Assembly: GCA_013140575.1 (NCBI GenBank) | Contig: JABFSN010000007.1 | Coordinates: forward strand, 1-43,404 | Origin: Phycisphaerales bacterium | Lineage (GTDB): Bacteria; Planctomycetota; Phycisphaerae; UBA1845 | Length of the DNA stretch: 43,404 nucleotides | Reading direction: 5' to 3' | Part shown: positions 21,065 to 40,234 of the stretch, in pieces | Numbering within the stretch: position 1 is the first letter of the stretch | How the letters are laid out: the number at the start of each line of letters is the position of its first letter | Program-made: the position numbers and the translations under genes | The notes under the pieces: model-generated | What the model was told of the DNA's origin: nothing | The model's input: the letters and a program-made list of their open reading frames with translations, nothing else | Databases searched by the model: none

Positions 21065-21175
21065 GGGTGGCACTGACAACGGTGCTCCGTCGTCAGTGCG
21101 CCGCAGGTGTTCGTGCTGGTTTCGGAACGAACGCCGGCGGGCTGACACACTGGCAAGCGAGTACGCTTGTCCGTG
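21065..21175. repeat. Two-hairpin composite palindromic element (copy 2, inverted)
   Basis: It starts with GGGTGGCAC (21065-21073). Hairpin B comes first (21071-21098, arms CACTGACAACGG/CCGTCGTCAGTG, loop TGCT). After 49 bases hairpin A follows (21148-21175, arms CACTGGCAAGCG/CGCTTGTCCGTG, loop AGTA). The order is the reverse of copies 1 and 3, as expected for an inverted copy. A second GTGCCACCC end at 21418-21426 closes a larger inverted-repeat frame that also encloses the element at 21215-21374. Confidence 0.75.
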
Positions 21176-21214
21176 TTTAGCGTCTCCGGGGGTTTGCCTG
21201 CCGCAGGCAGGCCT

Positions 21215-21374
21215 GAATGTAGCCCCGCGTTTCAACGCGGGGTACGCTGGAGACCCAATGGCACTGAGTCCCGAAGGGACGGCTGAAATCCCGCATGACG
21301 CTTCAGTCGTCCCTACGGGACTATGGATCCTTGGCGGCGGCGTCATCCCAGCACTGAAGTGCTGGGCTACATTC
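21215..21374. repeat. 160-bp palindromic element with 11-bp terminal inverted repeats (copy A)
   Basis: The ends are the perfect inverted repeats GAATGTAGCCC (21215-21225) and GGGCTACATTC (21364-21374). Inside are three stems. CCCCGCGTT/AACGCGGGG spans 21223-21242. A central 21-base stem pairs 21267-21287 with 21302-21322, starting AGTCCCGAAGGGACGGCTGA, with two mismatches. CCCAGCACT/AGTGCTGGG spans 21347-21366. A small hairpin lies just outside each end (21195-21209 and 21377-21395). An inverted copy is at 22751-22911, on the other side of ltaE. There is no coding capacity; it resembles a miniature non-autonomous element. Confidence 0.85.
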
Positions 21375-21475
21375 ACAGCGTCCCCAAGGGACGCTAAACA
21401 CATACGTACGCTTGCCAGTGCCACCCACGTGTGTTCATCGGAACCGCCGGGTCATCTGCGTGTCGGCCGGTCCCG

Positions 21476-24436: not shown

Positions 24437-26053
24437 TCATCCCCGTCGAGCATCCCGCGTCTCCGCCTGCCACCGTTTGCCGCCGATGTGGATCATCAGA
24501 AGTAGAAACACGATCACCACGACCACCAGCCCGACAGACAGCGCGATGGCATTGTCCGCCCGGACCATGTCGATGTACCGCCCCAGGTCGTTCCACGCCC
24601 ACCAGCCCAGCATGATAAGCAGGTACAGCAGCGTAACATACTTGATCATGAACTTGAAAAAGAACGGAAGGCGCATCTGCGCCCCCTCGTGGGCGAAGCG
24701 GATGCCGCGATCGGCCCCGAACACCCATCCGAACAAAATGGTCTGAATCGCGGCCAGCACCACGATGGTGATTCCGCCCACGGTGTCGTCGACGAAGTTC
24801 AGGGCCCGAAGGTCCTTGCTGAAGAAGATGAAAAACAGCGATCCCATCCCGGTGATCAGCCCCAGCAGCGCGACCGACCCGCGCCGGCCGATCCCCAACG
24901 CCTCCTCCAAAAACGCGATCACCGGCTGGAGCATGGACAGCGAACTGGTGATGGCCGCCAGGAACAACATAAAGAACCAGGTGCAGCCGAAGAATCGCCC
25001 GCCGGGCATGTGCTCGAACACGATGGGCAACGTCTTGAATCCCAGATCAAACGTCCCGGTTTTGGCGGCGCCCGCAATGCCCATGAACACGAACGCTGCC
25101 GGTATGGTGATCAGCCCGCCCAGGCAGACCTCGAAAAACTCGTTGGTGGCCGAGGCGGTCAGCCCGGAAAGCACGACGTCGTCCTTGCGTTTCAGATAGC
25201 TCGCGTAGTTGATGATCACGCCGAAGCCGACGGAGAGGCTGAAGAATATCTGCCCGGCGGCCGCCATCCACACCTTGGGTTCGGCCAGCACCGTCATCCA
25301 CGTGCCGCCGTCGGCCGACATCGGTTTCGGATTCCACATGAACCCCAGCCCGTTCATCACGCTGAGCTCCGGTTTGGACGGGTCGGGCGTCCCCAGCGTC
25401 AACACGCGGACGAGAACAATAATGGCGCAGACGGCCATGACGGGCATGGCCCAGGTGCAGAATTTCTCGACGCCCTTGGAGAGCCCGCGATAGACGTAAT
25501 AGAAGTTCAGCGCGAAAACGAGCAACCAGACGATGACGCTGATGTGCGGCCGGCCGTTGAGCATCAGCCCGTCTTGGTTCGCCCCGACGAACTCATTGAA
25601 ATAGTCCACGCTCTTTTCCGCATGAAGAGCGGGATCGGCGCCCAGATCGATCCAGTCCAGGGCGTAGCTGACCGCGTAACCCACGCACCACGATTCAATG
25701 AGCACGTAGTACATGTAGACGACGACGGGAATTAACAGTCCGAAGACGCCGAGGTATCGCCAGATCGACCGGCGACCCAGCACGCCGAAAATGGCCGGGC
25801 AGGAATTGAACCCAAACTGCCCACCGTACTTGCCCATCGTCCATTCCGCCCAGCAGATGGGAATGCCCAGGAAGATCAGGGCGGCGAAGTACGGGATCAT
25901 GAACGCCCCGCCGCCGTTGGCCGCGGCGTTGCCGGGGAAACGCAGGAAATTGCCCAGCCCGACGGCAGATCCGGCGACCGCCAGTATCACGCCCAGCCGC
26001 GACCCCCATTGTTCGCGCGGACGAGTCGGATCCAACGCCGGAGCTTCAGTCAT
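24437..26053 (-). CDS. Sodium:neurotransmitter symporter family (NSS/SNF) transporter
   Basis: A 538-residue membrane protein with about 12 helices. It probably takes up an amino acid or related solute with Na+. TM1 has WGSRLGVILAVAGSAVGLGN and NFLRFPGNAAANGGGAF, the unwound sodium/substrate-binding helix of LeuT-like transporters. GIPICWAEWTMGKYG and the TM6 block AAAGQIFFSLSVGFGVIINY also match. The start MTEAPALDPTRP at 26053 is preceded by GAAGGGTG, and the 23 extra residues upstream are not conserved-looking. The last helix is followed by a basic tail. The next gene encodes a 50-residue one-helix protein, likely its accessory subunit. The substrate is unknown. Confidence 0.92.
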   Translation of the reverse strand: MTEAPALDPTRPREQWGSRLGVILAVAGSAVGLGNFLRFPGNAAANGGGAFMIPYFAALIFLGIPICWAEWTMGKYGGQFGFNSCPAIFGVLGRRSIWRYLGVFGLLIPVVVYMYYVLIESWCVGYAVSYALDWIDLGADPALHAEKSVDYFNEFVGANQDGLMLNGRPHISVIVWLLVFALNFYYVYRGLSKGVEKFCTWAMPVMAVCAIIVLVRVLTLGTPDPSKPELSVMNGLGFMWNPKPMSADGGTWMTVLAEPKVWMAAAGQIFFSLSVGFGVIINYASYLKRKDDVVLSGLTASATNEFFEVCLGGLITIPAAFVFMGIAGAAKTGTFDLGFKTLPIVFEHMPGGRFFGCTWFFMLFLAAITSSLSMLQPVIAFLEEALGIGRRGSVALLGLITGMGSLFFIFFSKDLRALNFVDDTVGGITIVVLAAIQTILFGWVFGADRGIRFAHEGAQMRLPFFFKFMIKYVTLLYLLIMLGWWAWNDLGRYIDMVRADNAIALSVGLVVVVIVFLLLMIHIGGKRWQAETRDARRG

Positions 26054-26528
26054 CGGTTCACCCTTCTCGACGCCATGGGCCAGCCGTTGGACAGGCCCGA
26101 TTCCTCGTGCCGCGCCTCCCAATCAGAACCCGCCACGCAAGTGGCGGGCGGGGCGGACTGGTGCCCGCGCGAATCCATCGCGACTCGGTTCCCACTTGGC
26201 CCCGGACTCGTGTCCGGGGTTCTGATTTCAGTGCCGTGATCGCCGCGGCACACGTCGGATTCTGCTCCGACCGACCCGCGACTGCGACAACGGGCGTGAA
26301 GCCTAACGAGGGTCAGCGGTGGATTCAAGCGATAATGTCGGCGGCGTGTGGCGGCTGCGGGGAGTACCGACGCGCCGTGAATGCGGCACGCCGGCCGTGG
26401 CACGGGCACCCTGCCCGTGGTTCTGTGACACGAGCATCCTGCCCGCGAATACATGGCCGGGACGGCCATGCCACGGAACATGGGCTGGAAGCCCATGCCA
26501 CGGCCGGAAGCCCATTCCGCACGATCGG
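26054..26528. repeat. 475-base non-coding gap filled with dispersed palindromes
   Basis: No convincing gene is present. Hairpins seen are: CCCGCCAC-GCAA-GTGGCGGG (26129-26148, related to 20996-21015); CCCCGGAC-TCGT-GTCCGGGG followed by TTCTGATTTC (26200-26228); CACGGGCA/TGCCCGTG (26401-26419); CATGGCC/GGCCATG (26452-26470); and CATGGGC/GCCCATG (26479-26497). The last three, with a decayed unit at about 26431-26446, form a spaced array of the same type as 20936-20977. The gap lies between the co-directional response-regulator and symporter genes. Confidence 0.75.
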
Positions 26529-27932
<1,404 letters not shown>

Positions 27933-27948
27933 GGACGGGACTCCTGAA

Positions 27949-29067
27949 TCAGGTGTTCATGTGAATGGGAACGGGAACGGTGACGGTGAATACGGCGCCG
28001 CCGCCGGCGCCCGGCTGCGCGGAGATGTGACCGCCGAGCTGTTCGACGAAATCGCGGCAGATGGCCAATCCCAGCCCGGTGCCGTCCTGTTGCGCTTTGG
28101 TGGTGAAAAACGGCTCGAACAGGCGATCCGGCGGATCGGGCAGTCCGACGCCGGTGTCCTCGAATCGCAGGACCGCTTGCTCGTTGACCACGCCGGTGGT
28201 AACGGTCAGCCGGCCGCCCCCGGGCATGGCCTCCAACGCGTTCTTGATCAGATTGCAACAGACCTGAAACAACCGGCTCCCGCGGACCATGGGCATGTCC
28301 TGATCGCGATAGTTGGCGGTGATCATCACCCCGGTTTCGGCCGCGCGGTCCTCCATCGAGCGGATGGCCTCCTCGACCACGCGATTCAGATTGGCCGGCT
28401 CCGCCTGCCCGTGAACGTCGCGACCGTACGCGAGCAGTTCGGACGTGATTTGCATCATGCGCATCAGCCCGTCGCGCGCGGCGCGGAGGTAGTCGGGTGT
28501 TTTTTGGATGCGCGACTGGTCTATCTCCCGAAGCGCGAGATTCACGTAGCGCAGAATGCCGTCGAGCGGGTTGTTCAGTTCATGGGCGGCGCGGGCCACG
28601 AGGTTGACGGCGCCGGCCGTGTGTTCGAGTTGCCGGATTTGCGTTTCCAGGCTGACCCGGTCGGTCACGTCGGCGGCGGCGAGCAGTCCGCCGATGGCAT
28701 CGCCGCCCGGAGCGCGAACGGGCGTCAACGTGAACGTGTAGTATCGCGGTTTCCGGGCCGGCGCCGCGTAGGACGTGTTTTCGAACGTGGCCGGTCGCTG
28801 ACTGACCAGGACGTCGCGGGCGCGATTGCCCCAGTCGCTGTCACCCGGTGCGCGCGCGTGGGCGAGCAGCGCCGGCAACGTGTCACCATCGGCAAGCTGC
28901 GACGCGGCCGGCGCGTTGCGCGCGATCACCCGCAATTTGAGATCAAACAAGACGGCCGGCAGGGGCAGTGCGTCCAGAACGGCCGTCAACGACGCCGACG
29001 TGAATGGAACGGCAGTCGCCGTCGCGGTTGGTGCGTCATCGCGCCGGTTGGAGTTGCTTGTGGTCAA
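27949..29067 (-). CDS. PAS-domain sensor histidine kinase
   Basis: A 372-residue kinase that should phosphorylate the adjacent response regulator. It starts with TTG at 29067. A PAS-like domain covers about residues 25-135 (LDALPLPAVLFDLKLRVIAR). The HisKA H-box AHELNNPLDGILRYVNLAL lies near 158. Catalytic-domain boxes are NLIKNALEAMPGGG (N), FEDTGVGLPDP (G1) and GTGLGLAICRDFV (G2). There is no signal peptide or transmembrane helix, so the sensor is cytosolic. The signal is unknown. The stop lies 16 bases before the regulator start. Confidence 0.92.
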   Translation of the reverse strand: MTTSNSNRRDDAPTATATAVPFTSASLTAVLDALPLPAVLFDLKLRVIARNAPAASQLADGDTLPALLAHARAPGDSDWGNRARDVLVSQRPATFENTSYAAPARKPRYYTFTLTPVRAPGGDAIGGLLAAADVTDRVSLETQIRQLEHTAGAVNLVARAAHELNNPLDGILRYVNLALREIDQSRIQKTPDYLRAARDGLMRMMQITSELLAYGRDVHGQAEPANLNRVVEEAIRSMEDRAAETGVMITANYRDQDMPMVRGSRLFQVCCNLIKNALEAMPGGGRLTVTTGVVNEQAVLRFEDTGVGLPDPPDRLFEPFFTTKAQQDGTGLGLAICRDFVEQLGGHISAQPGAGGGAVFTVTVPVPIHMNT

Positions 29068-38578: not shown

Positions 38579-40234
38579 TCAATTCGCCGTTAGTGTCTGT
38601 GAATTGTTGAAAAACAACAGATTGACCGCGGCGATAAGTTCTTGCACCACCGGCGTCTCCATCAATTGCCGATGGAACACTGTCGCGGCCAACAATCCGA
38701 TCGTCAACCAGGGTCCCAGCGGAATCACCCGGCTTCTTTTGAACGGCAGCAACGCCAGCCAGCCGATCATGGCCGCCACGCAGGTTACCACGAACCCCAT
38801 CAGCACCACCGGCCAACCAGCGACGGCGCCCGCAGCGGCCATCATGTGAATGTCGCCGGTGGCGAACGCTTCCTTGCCGTAAATCAGATTCGCGAGGATG
38901 CGCACCGTCCAAGCCATGCCGGCCGCGATGACGTATCCGCTCATGGCCGTCGCGCACCCCCATAGCGGTTGCCACCCGCCATCCAGCGGCGCCCAATGGA
39001 GGATTCCGCGAATTCGTTCGCCGATGCCGGGTTGCAGCGCGGCTACTACGGCCACTGTGCCCAGCGCGATCGCCGGCAGCAGTACGGCCAATTCGCGCAA
39101 CGTCTGAACGCGAACGTTGGGCGCCTCCACCTCGATGGCTTCGGCGATGTCCGTGTCCGAGTCGCGCACCTGCGCCGCTTCGCGCAAGATGACGATCATG
39201 AAGAAGGTCAGCGCGGCCGCCGCGCGGGTCCAGTACGGCGGCGCCCACGAAGCGCCCGCGTCGGCCGCGGCGATGGATACGAACAACGCTGCAAACAACA
39301 CCAGCGGTATCGCCAGCCGCCGGCGTGCCGCATTCCCCTGTTCCTGTCCGTGCGTGCCGAGCGCGGAAAACACCGAATCAGAGCCGTGGGCGCCAGCCCG
39401 CGGATTCTGAAACCGTGGGTCGCCCTCGGCATCCTCATCACCGGGCTTGCGCCCGGTGCTCTGAAACGGTTGAGGTGCGTCGAATACATTCTCCACGTGG
39501 GGGGGGAAACCGGGTGAGGGGATTCCCGCGACGGAGTTCGATTGCGGCGCACGGTCCGGGTTCGTCATTTCGTCGCCGCGCGCATGATCGTGCGCGGAGG
39601 TATACATTTCCGCGTCCGATGCATCACGTCGCGGCAACAGCAGCCAGGTGATCGCGAAGACGATGAATGCGATCGTGCCCCCCGCGGCCGTGGCATCGAA
39701 CGGCCGCGGCCAGTCCCGGCTGTAGCCGGGCGTCCAGATCGAATGCAGGAGGATGCCGCAGGCGGCAGCCAGATGCGTGAAGCGGATGTCCACCCAGTAG
39801 AACTGCAGGTCAATGGCGGACATGGCCAACAGACTGGTCATCAGCACTACGTGGGCGACGTACATCGGCCAATCGTCGGCGAGCGACCAGTTCAGGTTGG
39901 CCGCCGACGTCAACCCCTCGCGCGCCCGCCCCACGAAAAACGCATCCAGAAGGACGAGCACGAGCATGGCCGTCATGATCTCGACCAGCGGATAGCGCAA
40001 CGCAATCGGAGACCAGCAATTGTGGCATCGGCCGCGGAGGCGCAGGAAGCTAATGACCGGGATGTTGTGATGCCAGGCGATGCGGTTGCAGCAGTGGGGG
40101 CAGAATGACCATCGCGGACGGCTGACGTCGAGCCCCAGCGGCAAACGGTAGATGACGACGTTCAGGAAGCTGCCCAGACACAGCCCGACCGCGGTGCAGA
40201 ACAGGAGCCACCACAACGTGATGATAAGTGTCAC
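38579..40234 (-). CDS. Type IV prepilin peptidase (A24 family), enlarged
   Basis: A 551-residue membrane protease/methylase, about twice the usual 250-290. The N-terminal methylase part has CLGSFLNVVIYRLP and the zinc motif CPHCCNRI ... CHNCWSPI (about residues 45-72). The peptidase aspartates are in MSAIDLQFYWVD (about 140) and ATGDIHMM (about 458). Between them, about residues 196-305 are a hydrophilic linker with no family counterpart, followed by extra helices. The nucleotides coding part of this linker (39384-39467) are two palindromic elements like those found between genes. The frame is intact. It should process type II/IV pilin precursors; no pilin genes are in the window. Confidence 0.88.
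   Translation of the reverse strand: MTLIITLWWLLFCTAVGLCLGSFLNVVIYRLPLGLDVSRPRWSFCPHCCNRIAWHHNIPVISFLRLRGRCHNCWSPIALRYPLVEIMTAMLVLVLLDAFFVGRAREGLTSAANLNWSLADDWPMYVAHVVLMTSLLAMSAIDLQFYWVDIRFTHLAAACGILLHSIWTPGYSRDWPRPFDATAAGGTIAFIVFAITWLLLPRRDASDAEMYTSAHDHARGDEMTNPDRAPQSNSVAGIPSPGFPPHVENVFDAPQPFQSTGRKPGDEDAEGDPRFQNPRAGAHGSDSVFSALGTHGQEQGNAARRRLAIPLVLFAALFVSIAAADAGASWAPPYWTRAAAALTFFMIVILREAAQVRDSDTDIAEAIEVEAPNVRVQTLRELAVLLPAIALGTVAVVAALQPGIGERIRGILHWAPLDGGWQPLWGCATAMSGYVIAAGMAWTVRILANLIYGKEAFATGDIHMMAAAGAVAGWPVVLMGFVVTCVAAMIGWLALLPFKRSRVIPLGPWLTIGLLAATVFHRQLMETPVVQELIAAVNLLFFNNSQTLTAN
39384..39467. repeat. Two palindromic elements inside the prepilin peptidase gene
   Basis: CCGTGGGC-GCCA-GCCCGCGG (39384-39403, one mismatch) and CACCGGGC-TTGC-GCCCGGTG (39439-39458, perfect) are each followed within two bases by TCTGAAAC (39406-39413 and 39460-39467). 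A related unit in intergenic DNA at 26200-26228 has an 8-base stem, 4-base loop and TCTGATTT. The unit is thus carried within the coding sequence and translated as a hydrophilic linker. Confidence 0.65.

Follow-up and report, generated by a model that had tools for sequence, protein, structure and literature searches.

Mobile Repeats Inside Bacterial Genes

Small mobile repeats that are translated in frame within genes are already established in bacteria, the described examples including the Rickettsia palindromic elements (RPEs), ERIC and QMITE1 (PMC10969869). Nearly half of the 44 RPE copies of R. conorii lie in frame in genes (PMC10969869), and REPs found inside ORFs of several phyla add 20 to 82 residues to the encoded proteins (PMC3733652). 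Additionally, insertion sequences that target REP palindromes are known, among them IS1397 and ISKpn1 (PMC1525189). In the present study, a stretch of 43,404 nucleotides from a Phycisphaerales bacterium (contig JABFSN010000007.1; hereafter, the window) was analysed, in which a repeat with features of several of these systems lies within a prepilin peptidase gene.

Structure of the Intragenic Copy

As had been predicted from the sequence at the outset, the open prepilin peptidase frame (38579-40234, minus strand) contains two hairpins with 8-bp stems and 4-nt loops, one at 39384-39403 with a single G-T pair and the other at 39439-39458 with perfect pairing. They are the central part of a degenerate 142-bp MITE copy located at 39350-39491 (plus strand), which was recognized by nhmmer (E 8e-30 over model positions 3-127, the model itself including this copy) and whose ends were placed by alignment to family copies having target duplications. 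According to this family alignment, the element reaches beyond the interval of 39384-39467 originally proposed. In the 43-copy alignment, both terminal inverted repeats of the window copy are eroded, the left one occupying 39350-39366 on the plus strand (GTGCGTGCCGAGCGCGG, consensus GTACGTGTTTAGCGTGG) and the right one 39475-39491 on the minus strand. Between them, palindrome B (TCAGAG-CCGTGGGC-GCCA-GCCCGCGG; 39378-39403, plus strand) and palindrome A (CACCGGGC-TTGC-GCCCGGTG-CTCTGA; 39439-39464, plus strand) are separated by a 35-nt spacer (39404-39438, plus strand), and a repeat search joins 39372-39419 with 39423-39470 as a single long imperfect inverted repeat.

The original prediction regarded the hairpins as two direct units, each followed by the tag TCTGAAAC. 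Instead, they constitute an inverted pair carrying its tags on the outer sides, TCAGAG at 39378-39383 and CTCTGA at 39459-39464. Although TCTGAAAC is indeed found 3′ of both hairpins, the inner occurrence, at 39406-39413, belongs to the spacer, where other copies read, for example, TTCTTAAAACG, and its resemblance to the outer tag copy is partly a coincidence. Compared with the family consensus, the window copy has one mismatch in the 40 hairpin positions and 32 in the remaining 102, these counts being rough because the consensus mixes subfamilies. The target duplication has been lost, with a 3/8 match (TCCTGTCC versus TCCACGTG), which suggests that this is probably an old insertion. Since the terminal repeats are eroded and the duplication is gone, we infer the insertion event at this site by homology with the other copies.

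The Repeat Family in the Genome

The genome from which the window comes (G000) comprises 5.05 Mb in 268 contigs. When up to 3 mismatches are allowed, the unit pattern has 173 matches in it, against 5 for the reversed pattern, and the palindrome A unit pattern is matched exactly at 22 places, the window one included. Hairpins followed by TCTGA number 102 in 692 kb, compared with 0-1 in Markov shuffles, a density that should not be taken as a genome average because these stretches were chosen for containing hits. The units form inverted pairs, most of which are separated by 34-36 or 45-46 nt. Altogether, 74 copies of the family, mostly intergenic, were identified in 1.14 Mb of G000.

The aligned copies begin and finish with GTACGTGATTAGCGTGC ... 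YACGCTAATCACGTAC and carry the terminal inverted repeats GTACGTGWTTAGCGT at both ends. The element measures 142 bp in 23 of the 43 near-full copies, and a longer form has 154 bp. It is flanked by an 8-bp target duplication, the flanks of 41 copies matching at 5.49 of 8 positions versus 2.33 of 8 in a mismatched-flank control; the duplication is perfect in 13 of these copies, and no flank-match signal was found among them at 5-7 or 9-12 bp. A length below 500 bp, many and mostly intergenic copies, terminal inverted repeats, target-site duplication and the lack of a transposase gene place the family among the MITEs. Mean pairwise identity reaches 0.90 in the stems, 0.64 in the terminal repeats and 0.48 in the spacer, and one stem pair of palindrome B reads T-A in 16 of the 43 copies and C-G in 15 others.

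No convincing autonomous partner with matching ends was found among the IS66 and DDE_Tnp_1 families (PF03050 and PF01609), a missing transposase gene being weak evidence because the assembly is in 268 contigs. A transposase locus (L129) in G006 was considered as such a partner and rejected, since it has one end-like site and no duplication. G006 has the terminal repeats in common with the family (125 matches), and no copy of the 142-bp element was found in the 400 kb of that genome examined. Other elements share these ends. The window itself holds a 237-bp MITE (21169-21405, plus strand) with the same terminal repeats, an 8-bp duplication (GTACGCTT) and GTAG-tagged palindromes, and a 175-bp class also has the MITE ends in common (e.g., L063:5887-6061). 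Additionally, many contig ends of G000 (L096-L101, L103, L105 and L106) share a terminal sequence, CACAGGATTTCGCATGAAGTTTTCAACTCACAGCCC or GCGCGAAATCCTG, that falls within the GTAG palindrome carried by the 237-bp MITE; it looks as though the assembly broke at a further insertion sequence residing in such palindromes.

Translation of the Element and Its Near-Absence from Genes

On the minus strand, the window copy codes for residues 249-295 of the peptidase. Only one of the six frames of the family consensus is open, minus-strand frame 1, and it is identical to the frame used by the gene; its translation, YVFSVCHSFQSTGRKPGDGRAKGAPRFRHPRACAHGSDSGFPTLNTY, aligns without gaps with residues 249-295 (NVFDAPQPFQSTGRKPGDEDAEGDPRFQNPRAGAHGSDSVFSALGTH). 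The element plus one target duplication amounts to 142 + 8 = 150 bp, that is, 50 codons. The 33 differences from the consensus are spread over the codon positions as 12/9/12, an evenness that gives no sign of peptide constraint. Among the changes, there are acidic gains (S>D, G>E, R>D, K>E and A>D). It is most likely that the peptide is a tolerated spacer and not a new functional domain.

Coding scores above zero were obtained on either side of the window copy (0.22 and 0.38), which holds for no other near-full copy, versus 53% of random 142-bp intervals. Under a mild two-sided coding test, 2 of the 74 copies pass, the window copy and L146:9967-10057, in a census that is approximate because the codon model is a simple caller trained on long G000 frames. 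The L146 copy was discarded as an intragenic case, because it is partial and its frame appears to be antisense and lacks Pfam domains, and the long frames running across copies at L146, L095, L056, L060 and L069 were read as spurious; a scan found no Pfam domains in the L146 and L095 frames. Therefore, a second convincing in-gene copy, which the original prediction had led us to look for, was not found among the 74 copies in 1.14 Mb. The likeness then drawn to RPEs holds in that the repeat is mobile, mostly intergenic and translated in frame, but the in-frame habit is not widespread in this family.

The Peptidase Linker

The host gene encodes a product of 551 aa with the A24_N and Peptidase_A24 domains, the Pfam scan matching A24_N_bact at 2e-29 and Peptidase_A24 at 1.6e-4, the latter under the curated cut-off. 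Relatives are present in 58 of the 60 genomes searched. As originally proposed, the segment is part of the linker that joins the conserved aspartate regions, one at D142 and the other at the GD of positions 460-461. However, the original prediction took such a linker to be normally lacking in prepilin peptidases, and all 28 full-length relatives aligned, which come from other genera and are by name Phycisphaerae and other Planctomycetota MAGs, have a hydrophilic one at the corresponding place. In these relatives, the linker is very variable in length without being absent; its sequence shows no conservation, and it is flanked by two membrane helices. The aligned stretch has 157 residues in the query versus 80-172 in the relatives, and subtraction of 50 residues would leave it still within this range. 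Because every aligned relative has a hydrophilic linker there, the MITE would have lengthened a pre-existing one; hence, of the proposal that the repeat created the linker, the supply of about 50 residues stands and the origin of the linker itself does not.

A close relative with an empty site was not found in the 60 genomes or in a contig scan, the nearest relatives belonging to other genera with unalignable linkers; the scan of genome contigs yielded more distant ones only. In an AlphaFold2 model built from 18 sequences (pTM 0.80), residues 205-296 have pLDDT below 50 nearly throughout, with confident helices on either side, so this part of the linker is predicted to be disordered. In the prepilin peptidase of G014 (L013), the linker holds a short tandem peptide repeat (ESGQIETGQTETGQTES) that apparently expanded it, a different route to a longer linker.

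A REP-Like Core and Its Landing Sites

Pairs of TCAGAG-tagged palindromes also occur in G030, a genome that belongs to the same taxonomic family but a different genus; there, the spacers measure 6, 19, 44, 49 and 71 nt, and the outer sequences are unlike the shell of the 142-bp MITE. Seven TCAGAG units surround a Y1_Tnp gene of G030 (L209) within 3 kb, while the remainder of the 362 kb examined in that genome has at most 3 per 3-kb window. The L209 protein has an HVH motif and a Y1_Tnp Pfam match (E 1e-9), and it scores 22.7 bits against NCBIfam REP_Tyr_transpos, whose cut-off is 80. In G000, a homologue of this transposase was not found, and none of the eight Y1_Tnp genes has TCAGAG palindromes beside it. 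Tagged palindromes in inverted pairs, a feature of REPs and REPINs, are present in both G000 and G030. The presence of these palindromes on both sides of a Y1 (HUH) transposase gene in G030 makes the core look REP-like, and since the tag is TCAGAG and neither GTAG nor CGTC, it falls outside the GTAG and CGTC superfamilies. The core, two TCAGAG-tagged palindromes in inverted orientation, can therefore be called REPIN-like.

Several Y1_Tnp genes of G000 (L040, L042, L039 and L046) each lie between palindromes of a kind particular to them, whose tags differ from TCAGAG and whose stems measure roughly 8-10 bp; at L040, these form a regular 72-bp-spaced series. In a relative, a run of CACCGGGC palindromes occurs at L051 (G008:C1 838537-841558), several of them with a CCGAG tag.

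The sites in which the MITE landed were evaluated in 24 copies having at least 6 of 8 matching target bases, by joining the flanks to rebuild the empty site. Of the 24 rebuilt sites, 9 fall within the loop of a perfect palindrome whose stem measures 7-13 bp, compared with 2.1% of random sites having a stem of at least 6 there; the window site was left out because its duplication is lost. Some target palindromes are those of the family itself (CCCCGGACTCGCGTCCGGGG), and others (CCAGGGACTTCAGTCCCTGG) are also found beside a Y1 gene of G000. As such palindromes are mostly intergenic, the preference for their loops may, in addition to selection, contribute to the scarcity of copies in genes. The intergenic unit at 26200-26228, originally taken as a further example of the intragenic plan, does exist and is half of a pair at 26123-26225 (minus strand), between the genes at 24437-26122 and 26529-27956 (both on the minus strand), but it belongs to a different paired-palindrome family, C/D (TCAGAACCCCGGAC...GTGGCGGGTTCTGA). 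The C palindrome of that family is the landing site of a 142-bp MITE at L077:16837.

Origin of the Segment

The excess of repeat units over chance, the 8-bp target duplications of the family, the near-absence of its copies from genes, the single open frame with its gapless match to the protein and the disordered linker make it very probable that the segment is an old non-autonomous 142-bp MITE that inserted in the linker region of the peptidase and was kept since the frame was unbroken. A putative DDE-type transposase acting on the terminal repeats would have made the insertion, the 150 bp gained would have preserved the reading frame, and the insert would have been tolerated after landing in a disordered linker between membrane helices. 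A Y1 (HUH) transposase like that lying between the G030 palindromes probably acted on the core at some earlier time. There is next to no chance that the segment is instead a commonplace GC-rich linker in which hairpins arose fortuitously or a repeat expanded locally: this would agree with the wide variation at the same place in all relatives and with the seemingly tandem-expanded linker of G014, but it is refuted by the family alignment, in which the whole element matches a 74-copy family without gaps, and the excess of units over shuffles (102 versus 0-1) also speaks against it.

The good preservation of the palindromes bears on two other explanations. It is very unlikely that a REP/RAYT-type HUH transposase placed a bare REPIN here, with the terminal repeats as unrelated flanks. 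Within the family, conservation is highest in the palindromes (0.90, versus 0.64 and 0.48 for terminal repeats and spacer), the window hairpins were kept (1/40 mismatches) while the remainder drifts (32/102), and the same pairs are found in G030 within different shells and surrounding a Y1_Tnp gene, all of which this explanation would account for. However, the window copy aligns over the whole 142 bp, a search of G000 gave no homologue of the G030 transposase, and exact 8-bp duplications lie outside the terminal repeats in the family, whereas HUH enzymes are not known to leave such duplications. It is also improbable, if somewhat less so, that the hairpins are kept because they act at the RNA or DNA level, for instance in stabilizing the mRNA or regulating its translation, with the peptide as a by-product. 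It would fit the conservation of the window hairpins well above the rest of the element and the stem pair that varies on both sides across the family; nevertheless, this conservation is family-wide and may reflect how copies arose or were found, hairpin identity in the window copy is like that of intergenic copies, and no Rfam match above threshold was obtained.

Beyond the MITE insertion itself, a two-layer element can be tentatively envisaged, as a possibility on the doubtful side, in which a REPIN-like core moved by HUH enzymes would be cargo in MITE shells whose own transposase prefers palindrome loops, so that the repeats would seed their own landing sites and an occasional off-target landing would add a translated linker. 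REP-like palindromes together with a loop-inserting MITE shell would explain the build-up of intergenic composite repeats.

Comparison with Known Systems

The window case is a real one of a mobile repeat turned linker in one gene, ordinary in kind and well defined, and it adds a Planctomycetota example with defined ends to the few cases of small mobile repeats becoming protein. It also offers a rough tolerance rate for in-gene insertion, about 1 in 74 copies against about half expected at random sites. As far as a limited literature search indicates, what is new is the family itself, the TCAGAG tag that it carries and the way in which MITE ends and a REPIN-like core come together with a preference for loops.

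Like the RPEs (Ogata et al. 2000, as presented in PMC10969869), the family consists of mobile palindromic repeats about 150 bp long that contain an open frame and can be tolerated when inserted in frame in a protein gene. Unlike RPEs, which are in frame in many genes, it provides one convincing case in 74 copies; moreover, it belongs to a distant lineage and has defined terminal repeats and 8-bp duplications, the likeness to RPEs being one of description. With the intragenic GTAG/CGTC REPs (PMC3733652), it shares tagged inverted palindrome pairs that lie in ORFs and add tens of residues, but its tag is TCAGAG and the pair sits within terminal inverted repeats and target duplications. QMITE1 of Coxiella and the enterobacterial ERIC (PMC10969869, PMC2759123) are likewise non-autonomous and shorter than 500 bp, bear terminal repeats and enclose an open frame, whereas the family described here is GC-rich, has a REPIN-like core and frequently lands in palindrome loops. 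Finally, insertion into palindromic repeats is shared with IS1397, ISKpn1 and others (PMC1525189); here, however, the inserting element is a MITE, and 9 of its 24 sites with a recognizable duplication lie in the loops of palindromes with 7-13-bp stems.
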